In this document: piece by piece, positions 10,294-24,451 of the stretch | Numbering within the stretch: position 1 is the first letter of the stretch | Layout of the letters: each line of letters starts with the position of its first letter | Assembly: GCA_905478065.1 (NCBI GenBank) | Contig: CAJQGZ010000064.1 | Coordinates: 1-42,925, forward strand | Reading direction: 5' to 3' | Origin: an uncultured bacterium | Lineage (GTDB): Bacteria > Fidelibacterota > Marinisomatia > Marinisomatales > UBA1611 | DNA: 42,925 nt | The notes under the pieces: generated by a model | The model's input: the letters and a program-made list of their open reading frames with translations, nothing else | The model's database searches: none | What the model was told of the DNA's origin: nothing | Translations under genes and position numbers: made by a program

Positions 10294-10485
10294 TTAAATA
10301 GGCTTAACCAAATAAACCTGAATATTTGTGCCACCACTACTACTTGACACAACAGTAAATCCCTTTTTGATATAATCATCTACAGCATCAACAAGCTCTA
10401 GGCCACAACTAACAGTTGTGGTAATCATCACGTTGTTATCTCCTTCGAAAATATCTAAATGTTCAATAATTTTACGTTCACCCAT
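10294..10485 (-). CDS. Small conserved-looking hypothetical protein, 63 aa
   Basis: The predicted product is a compact soluble alpha/beta protein with one cysteine (VSCGLEL), a run of serines (VVSSSSGGTN) and no signal or membrane segment. A clear Shine-Dalgarno GGAG lies seven bases before the ATG, which supports real translation. A 12-bp perfect palindrome (10498-10509) sits just upstream of that site. It lies between the EamA permease gene and the MORN gene on the same strand. I do not recognise the family. Confidence 0.65.
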   Translation of the reverse strand: MGERKIIEHLDIFEGDNNVMITTTVSCGLELVDAVDDYIKKGFTVVSSSSGGTNIQVYLVKPI

Positions 10486-10497
10486 TCATTTACTCCA

Positions 10498-10509
10498 ATT
10501 GTTAACAAT
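10498..10509. promoter_or_regulatory. 12-bp perfect palindrome before a small gene
   Basis: ATTGTTAACAAT reads the same on both strands and lies two bases upstream of the GGAG ribosome-binding site of the 63-residue gene. A TATAGT -10-like hexamer lies about 15 bases further upstream on the minus strand, so the palindrome would fall in the early transcript. Candidate operator; AT-rich sequence makes chance occurrence possible. Confidence 0.35.
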
Positions 10510-10556
10510 AATTTCTATTTAACTATACAAATTAATTTTTTTCTTAACCACAATTT

Positions 10557-17953: not shown

Positions 17954-18355
17954 ATGAACAATAAAAAAATATTAATCGGATTTACTTTTTTCTCTGCCAT
18001 AGTAATTTTTGCTATTGTCTACTTCAGCTTCAATAAGCCGCATAAAAATTTTGTTAAAGCTTCTTTTGAGTACACAATTCAATCCACCGAACTTTTTCAA
18101 AAGTATCAGCTTGATGTGTCAAATGCTAATACAAGTTTTCTAGATAAAGTCTTATTAATAAATGGAACAATTAAAGAAATAAGTTCTAATATGATTATTC
18201 TCGATGGCAATACCGTTTGCTCTTTTAATCCTGCTCAAACTATTGACCCTAAATTAAAGCTAGCAGACAAGATATCTATTAAAGGGCGATGTCTCGGTTA
18301 TGATGACCTTTTAGAAGAGGTTAGGATTGATAACTGCTCTCTCATGCAAAACTAA
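17954..18355 (+). CDS. Membrane-anchored OB-fold (tRNA_anti-like) protein, second copy
   Basis: 133 residues from the ATG at 17954 (a TTG at 17945 is the alternative). One N-terminal membrane helix (about residues 5-25), then the OB-like domain with VLLINGTIKEIS, a conserved cysteine (GNTVCSF) and KISIKGRCLGYD. It resembles the protein at 15696-16100 over the whole domain. The 3' end overlaps the convergent dnaE2 gene by 14 bases. Divergent from the cytochrome lipoprotein with about 78 bases between them, room for two promoters. Function unknown. Confidence 0.75.
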   Translation: MNNKKILIGFTFFSAIVIFAIVYFSFNKPHKNFVKASFEYTIQSTELFQKYQLDVSNANTSFLDKVLLINGTIKEISSNMIILDGNTVCSFNPAQTIDPKLKLADKISIKGRCLGYDDLLEEVRIDNCSLMQN

Positions 18356-21353
18356 CTGACTTAGTCTTTTTTACCCATTCTCTTAAACTAACCATTTTAT
18401 CAACATTAATATTGTATACTCCAAAAGAGGCCTCCACTTTTCCATAAATAATAAATAATGTTTCCCAATTCATAATATCACCAAACTCAGCAAACACTTT
18501 CGGAAACAAAATACACTCATACGTATCTGTTTCGTCTTCTAAGGTTAAAAACTGCATTGGTTCATTTTGATTCGTTTGTGTTTCTTTACGCGTAACGTAA
18601 ACTCCTAAGAGATAGATATATTGACCTAACTTTTTTGGTATATCTTTAGCAAGACCAATCCGCTTACTCACAAAAGAACGATATGGTTCTAAGGGATGGA
18701 GACTGACAGGATAACCGAAAGAACCAATTTCCAGCCTATATATTTCATATTTTGTGAGTACTTCTATAATAGGAGCACGGTTCAAAGGCTCGTTGTTATC
18801 TTTACCGTTAAGATGAAACTCAGCAACTATATATGCAATTTGCCTATGACTTTTATCGTGACATAATTTTTTAAAACATTGCGCATTTGTTAACGCCATT
18901 GCATCGGATAAATCAATTTTCACTCTAAATAAAAAGTCCTCTAAAGATAAAAAGTTTCCAGACTTTCTATTTTCTAATATTACTTTCACTGTATTTTTTT
19001 TTAAGCGCTTGATACTCATGAAACCCATTAAAATCTGATTATTCTCTCCTATCCATTCGTATTTACTGTCATTGATATCTGGTGTGTGTATCGCTACCCC
19101 AAAACGTTTTGCCTCACTCATGTAGGCATATGAAGAATAATAACCACCCTGATTTGATATTACTGAGGAAATGAACTCTGCAGTAAAATGCGTTTTAAGA
19201 TATGCACAGGTAAAAGCAAGCATTGCATAAGAAGCGGAATGAGGTTTGCAAAATGAAAAACCTTTAAAAGAAGATATCATTTGCCAGGTTTGATCAATTG
19301 TATCAGGTTTGTAACCTCTTTTGAATGCGTTTTTAAAAAATGTGTTTTTCCAATTATTTATTTTATGCTCATCAGAGTTACGAGAGATTACTTTTCTTAA
19401 CTTATTTGCTTCTGCATAACCCAATCCAGTCATTATCATAACGACCATAGATACTTGTTCTTCATAAACCATAATACCATATGTCTCATTTAAACAAATT
19501 AAATCCGGATGAACTAAACTCCACTTTTGTCCATGTATTCTATCTAACATTAAATTCGTGAAACGATTAGCTGCGGGGCGAATGATTGATGAGAAAATAA
19601 CAATATGTTCAAAATCGACAACTTTAGCCTTCGCCATTAACTGCCTAACGGCAGGGCTTTCAATATAAAAAACGCCCATTGTTTTACCCGCTCTCATAAT
19701 CTCTCTCGTTTTGGAATCTTCTAGAGGCTGTATCTTATGATAATTAATATAGGGGATTTTATCTGTACTCGATTGGAGATTAATTCGTTTTATTGTATCT
19801 CGTACAACTGCTAAACTACGATTACCAAGAAGATCAATTTTAAGTAAGCCTGAATCTTCGATTTGATCTTTTTCCCACTCTACAATTTGTATTCCCTTTG
19901 GCGCTTTCAAAACAGGGACATACTTACATATTTCATCCGGAACAATCACAACACCTCCTGGATGGACAGAAGAATGTCTGAACACACCTAATAGGCTCTC
20001 ACTAATTTGCAGAACATTCTTCATGTTATCATCAATATCCAAGACAGCATTATTCTTAACTTTTTTTATTATTTTTTTATTAGAACTGAATGACTTTATT
20101 CGTTTTGTAACACTTTTAATTTGCTCATTTGAAAGACCATGAACTTTCCCAACCTCGCGAATTGTAGACCTTGGTTTTAAAAAAACCTGATTCGAAACCA
20201 TTGCAGTACGTTCATTTCCATATTTCTTAAAAACATAGTCAATAATCCTATCTCGCTCATCCCAAGGAAAATCTATGTCGATATCTGGCATATCAATTCT
20301 TTCTGGATGAATAAAACGATCAAATGACAAGTTATACTTCATAGGATCTACCTGTGTAATAAATAAACAGTAACTAACAACCGAGGCTGCGGCAGAACCT
20401 CTTCCAATAGTTGATTTAGTTTGAGAAACAATATCATTCACAATCAAAAAATAAGGAGCAAAACCCTTTTGAGTAATTAATCTTAATTCAGACTCAATGC
20501 GATTAATCAAATCATTTGTTATCTTTTCATAACGTATTGCAGCTCCTTGATAAGCATATTCTTTCAATTTTTTATTTGCTTGAAAAGTATCTTTCAATGA
20601 TAGTCCTGGGAAAATAGTATTAATAAATGACCATTTATTTTTACATCTTTTTGCTAGATAATAACTATTGTTAATTGCATCGAGGCTATTTGGAAAAAGG
20701 TCAAACATGTCCGTTTCTTTCCTAAACCAATGCTCCTTACTTTTATAATCGCAGCCATTCAAACTATTTAAAGTACTGTTAAGATCAATCGCTCTTAATG
20801 TTTTATGCGAAAGATGATCTAGAGGTGTTTCATAATAAACATCGCCCGTTGCAATTATTTCAAGTTTGTGTTTTTTAGATAACTTTCTCGCAAATGACTC
20901 TTCGACACCTGGCCTCAGTTCAATAAAAAGACGATCCTCCGGTATTATATTTTTTAAGCGTTCAATCAAGGATGATTGGTAAGCTAGAACAAATATTCCT
21001 TTTGAATTTTCTTTTATTATATCAACAACTGAACAAATGGGGTTTACGTAGTAATTAGTTATTGCCCGGCACATGTTTTCATATCCGATATCATTCTCAA
21101 CAAGGATAACAACCTCGTCCATACTTGTTATGAGGTTAACACCAGCAATCGGTGCCACTTTATTTGATTGAGAAAATTGAACAAAATTTATAAAACCTCT
21201 GACCGTATTAACATCCGTCAAAGCAATACTCTGTTGCGATTTACTGAGCGTGATTATGTCTTTAAGTGTAAGCGTACTCTGCATTTTTGAATACACTGAA
21301 TGAATATTTAAATTGATAAACATAAAAAAATAATGCCATGGATTACATGACAA
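18342..21353 (-). CDS. dnaE2: Error-prone DNA polymerase DnaE2/ImuC
   Basis: Catalytic C-family polymerase of the SOS mutagenesis system. About 1003 residues, typical for DnaE2 and shorter than replicative DnaE. Active-site acids are intact: PDIDID near 353-358 and KIDLLG near 503-508. GRGSAAASVVSYCL precedes the first, and a C-terminal OB-fold (YLLGVYVTRKE) is present. The PHP domain is degraded: the expected H-x-H reads N-I-H and the LTDHD motif reads LTDVN, so its metal site is lost. An internal ATG at 21323 gives MFINLNIHSVYS, matching family N-termini, and may be the true start; the longer start leaves a 10-base gap to imuB. Third protein of lexA-imuB-dnaE2. Confidence 0.95.
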   Translation of the reverse strand: MSCNPWHYFFMFINLNIHSVYSKMQSTLTLKDIITLSKSQQSIALTDVNTVRGFINFVQFSQSNKVAPIAGVNLITSMDEVVILVENDIGYENMCRAITNYYVNPICSVVDIIKENSKGIFVLAYQSSLIERLKNIIPEDRLFIELRPGVEESFARKLSKKHKLEIIATGDVYYETPLDHLSHKTLRAIDLNSTLNSLNGCDYKSKEHWFRKETDMFDLFPNSLDAINNSYYLAKRCKNKWSFINTIFPGLSLKDTFQANKKLKEYAYQGAAIRYEKITNDLINRIESELRLITQKGFAPYFLIVNDIVSQTKSTIGRGSAAASVVSYCLFITQVDPMKYNLSFDRFIHPERIDMPDIDIDFPWDERDRIIDYVFKKYGNERTAMVSNQVFLKPRSTIREVGKVHGLSNEQIKSVTKRIKSFSSNKKIIKKVKNNAVLDIDDNMKNVLQISESLLGVFRHSSVHPGGVVIVPDEICKYVPVLKAPKGIQIVEWEKDQIEDSGLLKIDLLGNRSLAVVRDTIKRINLQSSTDKIPYINYHKIQPLEDSKTREIMRAGKTMGVFYIESPAVRQLMAKAKVVDFEHIVIFSSIIRPAANRFTNLMLDRIHGQKWSLVHPDLICLNETYGIMVYEEQVSMVVMIMTGLGYAEANKLRKVISRNSDEHKINNWKNTFFKNAFKRGYKPDTIDQTWQMISSFKGFSFCKPHSASYAMLAFTCAYLKTHFTAEFISSVISNQGGYYSSYAYMSEAKRFGVAIHTPDINDSKYEWIGENNQILMGFMSIKRLKKNTVKVILENRKSGNFLSLEDFLFRVKIDLSDAMALTNAQCFKKLCHDKSHRQIAYIVAEFHLNGKDNNEPLNRAPIIEVLTKYEIYRLEIGSFGYPVSLHPLEPYRSFVSKRIGLAKDIPKKLGQYIYLLGVYVTRKETQTNQNEPMQFLTLEDETDTYECILFPKVFAEFGDIMNWETLFIIYGKVEASFGVYNINVDKMVSLREWVKKTKSVSFA

Positions 21354-21363
21354 ATATTATAAT

Positions 21364-22527
21364 TTAGCCCAATGCATGTAATACGTTCGCTTTTTTTATA
21401 ATTGTTATACCATATTTACGACGTATTTTTTCAACGGCTCTAGATATTTCCATATCACGTGACTCAGAGTCAAAAAATAAATTCTTCTGTTCAGTATAAG
21501 GCTTGAATTGGCTCAAGTCTAATAAGATACTCCTTATTGAAACACGCCTATTATTTGCCTTCGCAAACAACTTTTTGCACTTTTTACTGATCGAAATATC
21601 ATCCGGGTAATTAGCACTTCCAATTATACTAGAACTATAGCCATCAACATAGTGGACCTCCAGCCTAATTCTTTTTGCTATTTGTCCACGCTTCCTCAAT
21701 TGAAATGCTACTTTTTCCGATAAATCTTGCACAGCAGATAAAAGAACATATTGATTGTTTGTATTTTTAGGCAAAACTAATTGTTCTAGCAAATGATCCT
21801 TGAATATAGGCGGCCTGACTAATGATGTATCTCTACCAACTGCTTCGTCTGCTAACTGAACAGCGTTTACGCCAAACAATGTTCGAAAATCTTCAGCACA
21901 TTTAGTCAAGATTTGTAGTTGGAAAATTTTATCTATGAATAGAAAGTGTAGTATCCTATGTACAGGTTTGAGCCTAGCCGTTGGCAGGACATTAAAGCTT
22001 AAAGGAGCAAGAAATTGATTTTCTAATCCAAAATGAACTTCGTGGATACTCTCATGAACAACATTAGTAATGATTCTACTAACAAGTTTATTCGCACTAA
22101 TTCCTATTACTGAAAATAGACTAATACGGCTTTCTATTTTTTTAATAACAGACAAACCAAAGTCTTTTATACTATCTTGAGATCGAACCATACCTTTCAT
22201 ATCCATATAAAAACCATTCATCCCACTTGGTTCTACAATAGGTGTAAACTTAGAAAGTGTATCATAGGTATATTTATTTACACGCTGATACAAGGCACGA
22301 TTGTATGGTAAAAATTGAACCATTTGTTTTTTCTTTTTTGCAATAGAAACTTTCATCCCTTCGTACAAGCCTTCTTCCTTTGCTTCGTTTGAAAGAGATA
22401 TAATCGTACCACTACTATCGGCAGAAGATATGATAGCAATAGGGCGCGTTTTTAAAGTTGGATCAACTGTCCTTTCCGCTTGTAACTCTATCGAATCTAA
22501 ATTGAGATAAAATACTTCAGATAACAT
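21364..22527 (-). CDS. imuB: ImuB, inactive Y-family polymerase homologue
   Basis: 387 residues with a Y-family (DinB/UmuC) fold, but the three catalytic acids are replaced. The V-D-M-D motif reads L-N-L-D (residues 8-11), so the first Asp is Asn. The S-I-D-E-A-Y motif reads G-M-N-G-F-Y (about 100-105), so the Asp-Glu pair is Asn-Gly. Loss of catalysis is the hallmark of ImuB, the scaffold that links DnaE2 to the sliding clamp. A QKNLFF stretch near 343-348 fits a clamp-binding motif (Q-x-x-L-F). It lies between lexA and dnaE2 with gaps of 12 and 10 bases. No imuA/recA-like partner is present in the window. Confidence 0.92.
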   Translation of the reverse strand: MLSEVFYLNLDSIELQAERTVDPTLKTRPIAIISSADSSGTIISLSNEAKEEGLYEGMKVSIAKKKKQMVQFLPYNRALYQRVNKYTYDTLSKFTPIVEPSGMNGFYMDMKGMVRSQDSIKDFGLSVIKKIESRISLFSVIGISANKLVSRIITNVVHESIHEVHFGLENQFLAPLSFNVLPTARLKPVHRILHFLFIDKIFQLQILTKCAEDFRTLFGVNAVQLADEAVGRDTSLVRPPIFKDHLLEQLVLPKNTNNQYVLLSAVQDLSEKVAFQLRKRGQIAKRIRLEVHYVDGYSSSIIGSANYPDDISISKKCKKLFAKANNRRVSIRSILLDLSQFKPYTEQKNLFFDSESRDMEISRAVEKIRRKYGITIIKKANVLHALG

Positions 22528-22539
22528 TCATGACGTGTA

Positions 22540-23154
22540 TTAACTAGGATATTCTCGAAAAGAATATAAAAGCACGCCGTTTATATTAAATCTATCTGTC
22601 TCTTTAATAGTAATAACTGGAAAACTAGGATTGCGAGGGTGTAACTCTATATGATTTGTTTTGGGGACATAACACTTTAACGTTGCTTCATCATTAATGA
22701 GAGCAACCACAATTTGCCCTGATCTAGCTGTAGCTGTTTTTTTAACTACAATATAATCACCATCTTGAATTTGTTCATCTATCATTGATTGTCCTCGAAC
22801 CTGTAAGACAAAATTATCAGGATGAACCAAAGAAAGTGGAACTGTAACACTATTTGGCGTTTCTAATGCCTCAATAGGCTCTCCTGCGGCAATCAGGCCC
22901 AATAACGGCAAACAAGCCTCGGGATGCGTGGCGTGCTCTTGCGTTAATGTTAATGCCCGTTTGCCGTTAGAGCCTTTCGTACGATATAAATGACCTTCTT
23001 TCTCAAGCGTTTTAACATACCAATCCACTGTCCCTAAAGATTTAAAACCAAGCCCAGACATTATCTCATCATACGCTGGCGCTTCACCTTGCATGAGAGT
23101 AAAATTCTTTATGAAGTTCAAAAACTTTTTCTGCTTTAGGGACAGCGGTTTCAT
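22540..23154 (-). CDS. lexA: LexA repressor
   Basis: 204 residues: an N-terminal winged helix (about 1-65, LSLKQKKFLNFIKNF then GTVDWYVKTLEKEGHL) and a C-terminal self-cleaving domain. The cleavage site is Ala90-Gly91 (LIAAGEP), with nucleophile Ser123 (GQSMIDEQ) and base Lys160 (DEATLKCY). All are intact, so RecA-stimulated autocleavage is expected. The start is firm: no alternative start codon lies between it and an upstream in-frame stop. There is no Shine-Dalgarno, but a 51-codon frame ends across its ATG with an ATGA overlap, which suggests coupled translation. It likely represses its own operon through the repeat at 23315-23334. Confidence 0.95.
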   Translation of the reverse strand: MKPLSLKQKKFLNFIKNFTLMQGEAPAYDEIMSGLGFKSLGTVDWYVKTLEKEGHLYRTKGSNGKRALTLTQEHATHPEACLPLLGLIAAGEPIEALETPNSVTVPLSLVHPDNFVLQVRGQSMIDEQIQDGDYIVVKKTATARSGQIVVALINDEATLKCYVPKTNHIELHPRNPSFPVITIKETDRFNINGVLLYSFREYPS

Positions 23155-23377: not shown

Positions 23378-23605
23378 TTAAACTAAGCTATGATTGATTA
23401 GATCGTCGATTTCACTATGCTCAGGGAATCGACCCAGGGATTTTTTTGAAAAAATAAGCTTATCTTCAAGACATACTTCAAACACGCCACCACCACTTGA
23501 TATAAGCTCTATTTCAACTTCATACTTCCCTTTTAAATATTCCTCCAAACTGGAGGCTTTAGGCAGGTAGTTTCAAACGTTACAATATTCTATAGATATT
23601 TTCAT
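23378..23605 (-). CDS. selW: SelW/Rdx-family selenoprotein (in-frame UGA = selenocysteine)
   Basis: Reading from ATG at 23605 to TAA at 23378-23380 gives 75 residues with one internal TGA at 23573-23575 (residue 11). The N-terminus reads KISIEYCNVUNYLPKA if TGA is selenocysteine, exactly the C-x-x-U redox motif of SelW (YCGAUGY in mammals). The remaining pattern also matches: a GGGVFEV strand, then KLIFSKKSLGRFP, then a C-terminal helix. A hairpin meeting bacterial SECIS spacing lies 17-31 bases after the UGA. Other genes here use TGA as stop (for example clpP's neighbour tig and yceI), so this is local recoding. Rdx proteins are thioredoxin-fold redox proteins. It lies 30 bases after the PAP2 gene stop on the same strand and 14 bases before the lexA promoter. 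Confidence 0.88.
23542..23556 (-). promoter_or_regulatory. Bacterial SECIS-like hairpin of the selW gene
   Basis: On the minus strand CCTCC (23552-23556), AGTTT (23547-23551) and GGAGG (23542-23546) form a five-pair GC-rich stem, extendable by one A-T pair. The loop starts 22 bases after the UGA and has G as its second base. Published bacterial SECIS rules put the apical loop about 16-37 bases after UGA with a G among its first two bases. It is within the coding region, as SelB-dependent elements are. Confidence 0.7.
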
Positions 23606-23635: not shown

Positions 23636-24451
23636 TTAAAACTTATAGGATAGGCGAGTTTTAATTTTGCCAGCTGATTGCAATGATAATGAAACATTCA
23701 CATTGCTATTTTCTCTATGCCATTTTGGAACAAGCATTCCAATAGCACCACCAACAATATAACCTGTGACCAAATCTGAAGGGAAATGCTTTCCAGCATC
23801 ATAACGATAATATGCTGTACAAGCAGGAATCAAAAAGGCTGAGGTCCATAGATATGGTGAAATTTTACTATTTGGGTTATAGTCATCATACATACTTGCC
23901 ATTAAAAACCAAGAAACAGCAGCTATGGAAGTGTGGCCTGAAAAGAAGCTTTTTTTATTGTCTTTCTTTAACCTGTAATCACGAGGAGCCTTATCGCCGT
24001 AAAGATAAGGCCTAGGCCGACCAACTAATACCTTAGTGAAATTTGTAATACCTACAGTTAAAAAAAGGCTTTCTGCCCATATTAAAGAAAAGTTTTGATA
24101 ATCATTCCGGATTTTTTTATTTGCCATCAATACACCTGGTATCGCGAGACTAGAAAAAAGTAAAACATCACTCATTGCTATGCTTTTTAAACTCCAATTA
24201 TCTATTGCCTTCGAATCATATTTTGGAATATTCTTAGAATTTAAATTTGATATATTATCCAAGCTCATTGGAGCATAATCCATTAGCACAGAACCTAATA
24301 GCAAGCTGGCGCTAAGCCCCGCAATTTTCAAATCAAGATTGTTTGAAAATGAGTACGGTGAACTATTTTTTTCTTGCCCCATACCAGGAGAAGATACAAT
24401 TGTTATAAGTAGTAAAACTATTCGTGTTAGCTCAATACTATTTTTATTCAT
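23636..24451 (-). CDS. PAP2-family (type 2 phosphatidic acid) phosphatase
   Basis: 271 residues with a signal peptide or N-terminal helix and further hydrophobic segments. The three PAP2 motifs are present: KVLVGRPRP (140-148), FSGHTS (170-175) and RYDAGKHFPSD (216-226), so the phosphatase site looks intact. The family dephosphorylates lipid phosphates such as phosphatidic acid or undecaprenyl pyrophosphate at the membrane. A beta-rich C-terminal tail (NVNVSLSLQ, RLSYKF) resembles an outer-membrane ending. selW begins 30 bases after the stop, so they may share a transcript; glpK lies 108 bases upstream. Confidence 0.9.
   Translation of the reverse strand: MNKNSIELTRIVLLLITIVSSPGMGQEKNSSPYSFSNNLDLKIAGLSASLLLGSVLMDYAPMSLDNISNLNSKNIPKYDSKAIDNWSLKSIAMSDVLLFSSLAIPGVLMANKKIRNDYQNFSLIWAESLFLTVGITNFTKVLVGRPRPYLYGDKAPRDYRLKKDNKKSFFSGHTSIAAVSWFLMASMYDDYNPNSKISPYLWTSAFLIPACTAYYRYDAGKHFPSDLVTGYIVGGAIGMLVPKWHRENSNVNVSLSLQSAGKIKTRLSYKF

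Follow-up and report, generated by a model that had tools for sequence, protein, structure and literature searches.

In the Global Ocean Sampling data, SelW-like proteins are the most abundant of 51 families of prokaryotic selenoproteins, with 427 sequences carrying a CxxU motif according to the accessible part of that report (PMC2398784), and a later survey assigned to them 11.3% of marine selenoprotein genes (PMC9402790). The SelW genes of epsilonproteobacteria, in which a selenocysteine (Sec) UGA is followed just 3' by a hairpin, had escaped annotation (PMC4607533). NCBI now has a family model, NF041051 (SelT/SelW/SelH family (seleno)protein), also called SelTWH_Campy after Campylobacterota. 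Structures have been solved for relatives from Agrobacterium (2fa8), Streptomyces (3dex) and Pseudomonas (2obk), and for the more distant mouse SelW (2npb). To our knowledge, the bacterial SelW-like family has no known substrate or partner. In eukaryotes the SECIS element is located in the 3' untranslated region.

The locus described here belongs to a genome of the Neomarinimicrobiota (SAR406) and lies within a window of 42,925 nucleotides, the whole stretch of DNA analysed. Judged from its sequence, it is almost certainly a SelW-like, Rdx-family selenoprotein gene in which selenocysteine is inserted at a UGA codon. The features of the gene itself are as follows.

23378..23605, minus strand: predicted SelW-like (Rdx family) selenoprotein gene, supported by its translation, by Pfam and NCBIfam profiles and by orthologues in 34 relatives
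23573..23575, minus strand: UGA codon predicted to encode selenocysteine, residue 11; TGA kept in homologues, Cys in 3dex and 2fa8
23573..23584, minus strand: CxxU redox motif formed by C-N-V-U at residues 8-11; neither C8 nor residue 11 varies among 28 diverse homologues

The frame runs for 75 codons from an ATG at 23605 to a TAA stop at 23380-23378, and its sole in-frame stop is the TGA at residue 11. With this codon read as U, the product is MKISIEYCNVUNYLPKASSLEEYLKGKYEVEIELISSGGGVFEVCLEDKLIFSKKSLGRFPEHSEIDDLINHSLV. Translation thus reproduced the residues, coordinates and natural stop given in the initial annotation, which had left out the strand; it is the minus strand, and the TGA does sit, as had been claimed, at the U of C-x-x-U, that is, at the second position of the CxxC/CxxU motif. 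The plus strand of 23378-23605 was rejected as coding, as it contains several stops and offers no candidate. TGA terminates 10 of the 29 other genes counted in the window, which therefore uses the ordinary code; a genome-wide code change was rejected on this ground, in line with the earlier view of TGA as an ordinary stop elsewhere in the window.

Profile searches, in which the TGA residue was entered as C, placed the 75 residues in the SelW/SelT/Rdx group. Pfam Rdx (PF10262) matched residues 2-71 with an E-value of 7.3e-19 (68.2 bits, against a cut-off of 22.6), NF041051 matched over all 70 of its positions with 1.9e-29 (101.7 bits; curated cut-off 88), and TIGR02174 was recovered in the NCBIfam search with 3.2e-16 (59.4 bits, cut-off 34.2). 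The shortness of the gene, 75 codons, might suggest a chance open frame with a spurious resemblance to the family, but the Rdx match runs on both sides of the TGA, as does that of NF041051, and orthologues occur in 34 relatives; a chance frame is thus refuted, and its probability is vanishingly small.

An AlphaFold model built from 28 homologues (mean pLDDT 94.4) is consistent with membership of the SelW-like family. The best 22 PDB matches of the model are SelW-family proteins and MIEN1, with mouse SelW next. Similarity to solved SelW-family structures reaches TM values of 0.8-0.9, the best being 0.90 to 2fa8; the Agrobacterium, Streptomyces and Pseudomonas proteins share the predicted fold at 23-34% identity, and mouse SelW, of the same family and fold, is distant (E 0.025 by sequence, TM 0.67). 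In the model, a first strand (residues 2-8) leads into the motif C8-N-V-U11, followed by a helix (14-27), so that the product is predicted to adopt a thioredoxin-like fold in which a Cys-x-x-Sec site closes the first strand. Cysteine homologues were looked for at residue 11, and the residue aligned with the TGA is Cys in the solved relatives 3dex and 2fa8, which thus carry Cys at the second motif position where Sec is predicted here. By analogy with its family, the protein is most likely a small thiol/selenol oxidoreductase.

The in-frame TGA is conserved well beyond this genome. Among 41 genomes of the order, a match was found in 35, and the best match has an in-frame TGA in 35 of 35; in all 30 loci read from these 35 matched genomes, TGA specifies the second residue of the CxxU motif. 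In named bacterial genomes, all 80 hits kept carried TGA/U at the Sec position; 79 were classified automatically, all as TGA, and the remaining one (L097), which contains ambiguous bases, also reads U. This set was gathered with two search patterns and is biased to close relatives; one pattern lies 3' of the TGA and hence did not select for it. The hosts of the 80 hits comprise Neomarinimicrobiota, SAR324, KSB1, Calditrichota, Gemmatimonadota, Chloroflexota, Clostridia, Desulforamulus, and Aneurinibacillus, some of these names being those of metagenome bins and possibly wrong.

Downstream of the TGA, dN/dS values of about 0.09, 0.04, and 0.17 against three congeners indicate purifying selection, and therefore that the codons beyond the "stop" are translated and under selection. 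The outcome is the opposite of relatives ending at the TGA or lacking similarity beyond it, which had been named as what would speak against a selenoprotein; both the TGA and the downstream sequence are kept. These data also bear on a pseudogene, in which codon 11 of an Rdx gene of the Cys type would recently have mutated to a stop. Such a reading would account for the one in-frame stop and would agree with the lack of a detected tRNA-Sec in the assembly (see below), but all full orthologues of the order carry the identical stop at this very codon, as do homologues in other phyla, dN/dS is low past it, and the hairpin that follows covaries. The kept UGA and the kept reading frame after it refute the pseudogene, which is extremely improbable.

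A hairpin of the bacterial selenocysteine insertion type lies within the coding region, as follows.

23542..23556, minus strand: predicted bacterial SECIS hairpin with a 6-bp stem, CCUCCA/UGGAGG; supported by its folding energy, by covariation and by the bSECIS constraints

Its stem begins 16 nt past the UGA, and the apical loop, GUU at 23550-23548, 22 nt past it. The bSECIS model describes a loop of 3-9 nt, a stem of 4-16 bp, a G in the first two loop positions, a distance of 16-37 nt from the UGA and an MFE of at most -7.5 kcal/mol (PMC13188914). The SelW-like hairpin satisfies this model, with its GUU loop and G first, 6 bp, 22 nt, and -8.6 kcal/mol. When the window was scanned with Rfam at gathering thresholds, nothing matched and hence no SECIS was reported. 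Relative to shuffles, the hairpin of the single sequence is not unusually stable (z = -1.3), and it is convincing through comparison only. For an 8-pair version of the stem, 82.8% of cells were paired across 29 distinct orthologues, against at most 45.3% when it was slid by 1-3 columns, and RNAalifold independently recovered the same hairpin. Pair 21-33, which joins two third codon positions, occurs in five types (UA, CG, AU, GC, and UG). At pair 22-32, a shift from UA to GC coincides with the replacement of both Ser and Glu by Ala in the protein; this shift probably reflects a single lineage split and should be counted once. All 75 distinct sequences open the loop with G, and the serine encoded there is therefore always AGY, never TCN.

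From established knowledge of bacterial selenocysteine insertion, the UGA would be recoded in the cell as follows: ribosomes would reach the UGA at codon 11 of the SelW-like mRNA, SelB with Sec-tRNA-Sec would bind the hairpin 3' of it, and selenocysteine would be inserted with no termination. The initial annotation had supposed that the organism possesses SelA, SelB, SelC, and SelD, and had regarded an absence of selenocysteine machinery as contrary evidence. In the assembly of this genome (G000, 82% complete), profile searches located selA (466.9 bits) and selB (316.5 bits) adjacent to each other on contig G000:C29; of the 41 genomes of the order, 35 have a selB that scores above the cut-off. 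The selD gene is on contig G000:C35 (L054:1441-2500; G000:C35:9721-10647) and contains an in-frame UGA itself, in SHGAGUACK, so that Sec synthesis depends on Sec insertion. Three of the four supposed components are thus present, but the fourth, SelC (tRNA-Sec), was not found in the assembly.

The search for tRNA-Sec in G000 employed the Rfam model, a clade-specific pattern (at most 3 mismatches) and the tRNA-Sec of a congener as query, all with negative results; sub-threshold Rfam hits checked with ARAGORN corresponded to Ser, Gly, Leu, Cys, Asp, and other tRNAs. No recognisable tRNA-Sec was found in five assemblies, G000, G002 (93% complete), G003 (92%), G023, and G025, four of them more than 90% complete; selB is present in all five, as is selA where searched. 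The congener G005 has the gene, and across the order about 24 of 41 genomes have it with a score of at least 57 bits. The flanks of the congener's gene, which are sugar-nucleotide genes, had no match in G000-G003. In several relatives tRNA-Sec genes lie within about 25 bases of contig ends (G012:C27, G034:C151, and G040:C111), which favours an assembly gap over loss of the gene; such a position would be expected for a repeated or integration site. The tRNA-Sec gene of this genome thus presumably resides in the unassembled part. It is far more likely to have been lost at an assembly break than to be divergent or replaced by another decoding; that G000-G003 have a tRNA-Sec too divergent for the Rfam model and the clade pattern, or decode UGA otherwise, is improbable.

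The undetected tRNA is also the argument for a rival reading in which the Sec route has been lost and UGA is decoded as Cys or Trp, or by simple suppression, instead of Sec: no tRNA-Sec was found in G000 or in the genomes closest to it, even though two of these, G002 and G003, are more than 90% complete. Against this, selA, selB, and the UGA-containing selD are intact, the SECIS hairpin is retained, TGA closes ordinary genes of the window, and a congener has a normal tRNA-Sec, which makes decoding as another amino acid very improbable. Insertion of selenocysteine is thus the preferred reading of codon 11.

The gene is flanked on the same strand by the following features.

23636..24451, minus strand: PAP2-family phosphatase, upstream neighbour (Pfam PAP2, 1.1e-20)
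22540..23154, minus strand: LexA-like repressor, downstream neighbour and first gene of a LexA-ImuB-DnaE2 cassette (Pfam LexA_DNA_bind and Peptidase_S24)
18342-23154, minus strand: SOS mutagenesis cassette of consecutive genes for a LexA-like repressor, a Y-family polymerase resembling ImuB and a polymerase resembling DnaE2

A gap of 30 nt separates the end of the PAP2 phosphatase gene from the start codon of SelW. The order PAP2 - SelW - LexA cassette is kept within the genus and is irregular beyond it, and the neighbours therefore tell little about the function of SelW. The cassette is probably functionally unrelated to SelW, and no functional link between them is claimed. Elsewhere in the window, a second uncovered frame interrupted by TGA was noticed at 10294-10518 on the minus strand, with about 62 codons after TGA-ATG (MGERKIIEHLDIF...). 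It was rejected as a Sec-type frame; an ATG directly follows its TGA, and it is thus an ordinary small ORF.

It had further been proposed that conventional gene calling would report nothing at this locus. This is plausible, given two plasmid records with TGA-containing relatives, one without a gene and one with a truncated gene, the gene table being stated to be incomplete. On a plasmid of Cytobacillus spongiae (NZ_CP089998.1, L154:286-540), a probable SelW-like gene, recognised by its CxxU motif (EFCMRUNYAPKA), lies beside selD, and the plasmid table has no gene there. In Thermomicrobium roseum (NC_011961.1, L153:286-540), an annotated "Rdx family protein" begins only past an in-frame TGA (EYCTSUGY); the listed gene is therefore probably truncated at the Sec codon. 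The SelW-like gene of the window shows again that small genes with an early Sec codon are missed by gene callers.

Compared with the described systems, the gene shares with the SelW-like sequences of the Global Ocean Sampling the CxxU motif, the SelW/Rdx family and a marine bacterial origin, and no difference was found within the accessible part of that report, where the family is the commonest prokaryotic selenoprotein of the ocean metagenome (PMC2398784). The host is a Neomarinimicrobiota genome here, whereas that part of the report leaves the host of its sequences unnamed (PMC2398784). The present member of NF041051 comes from a phylum other than the one after which the model is named. With epsilonproteobacterial SelW (PMC4607533), likened by description, it shares the Sec UGA and the hairpin just 3' of it, in another phylum.

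A literature search on Marinimicrobia/SAR406 with selenoprotein or selenocysteine yielded few papers, and in their accessible parts this gene was not found described. In the accessible part of one survey, three SAR406 single-cell genomes are tabulated as "orphan SelD", a label for genomes that have SelD but no known selenium trait (PMC5029168, Table 1). Since selB and a Sec-type SelW are each present in 35 of the order's 41 genomes, these three cases may reflect incomplete genomes.

The SelW-like gene described here is real but unsurprising, belonging to a long-known bacterial family, the understanding of which it leaves unchanged. An abundant uncultured marine phylum nevertheless gains a well-supported selenoprotein, and hence a need for selenium.
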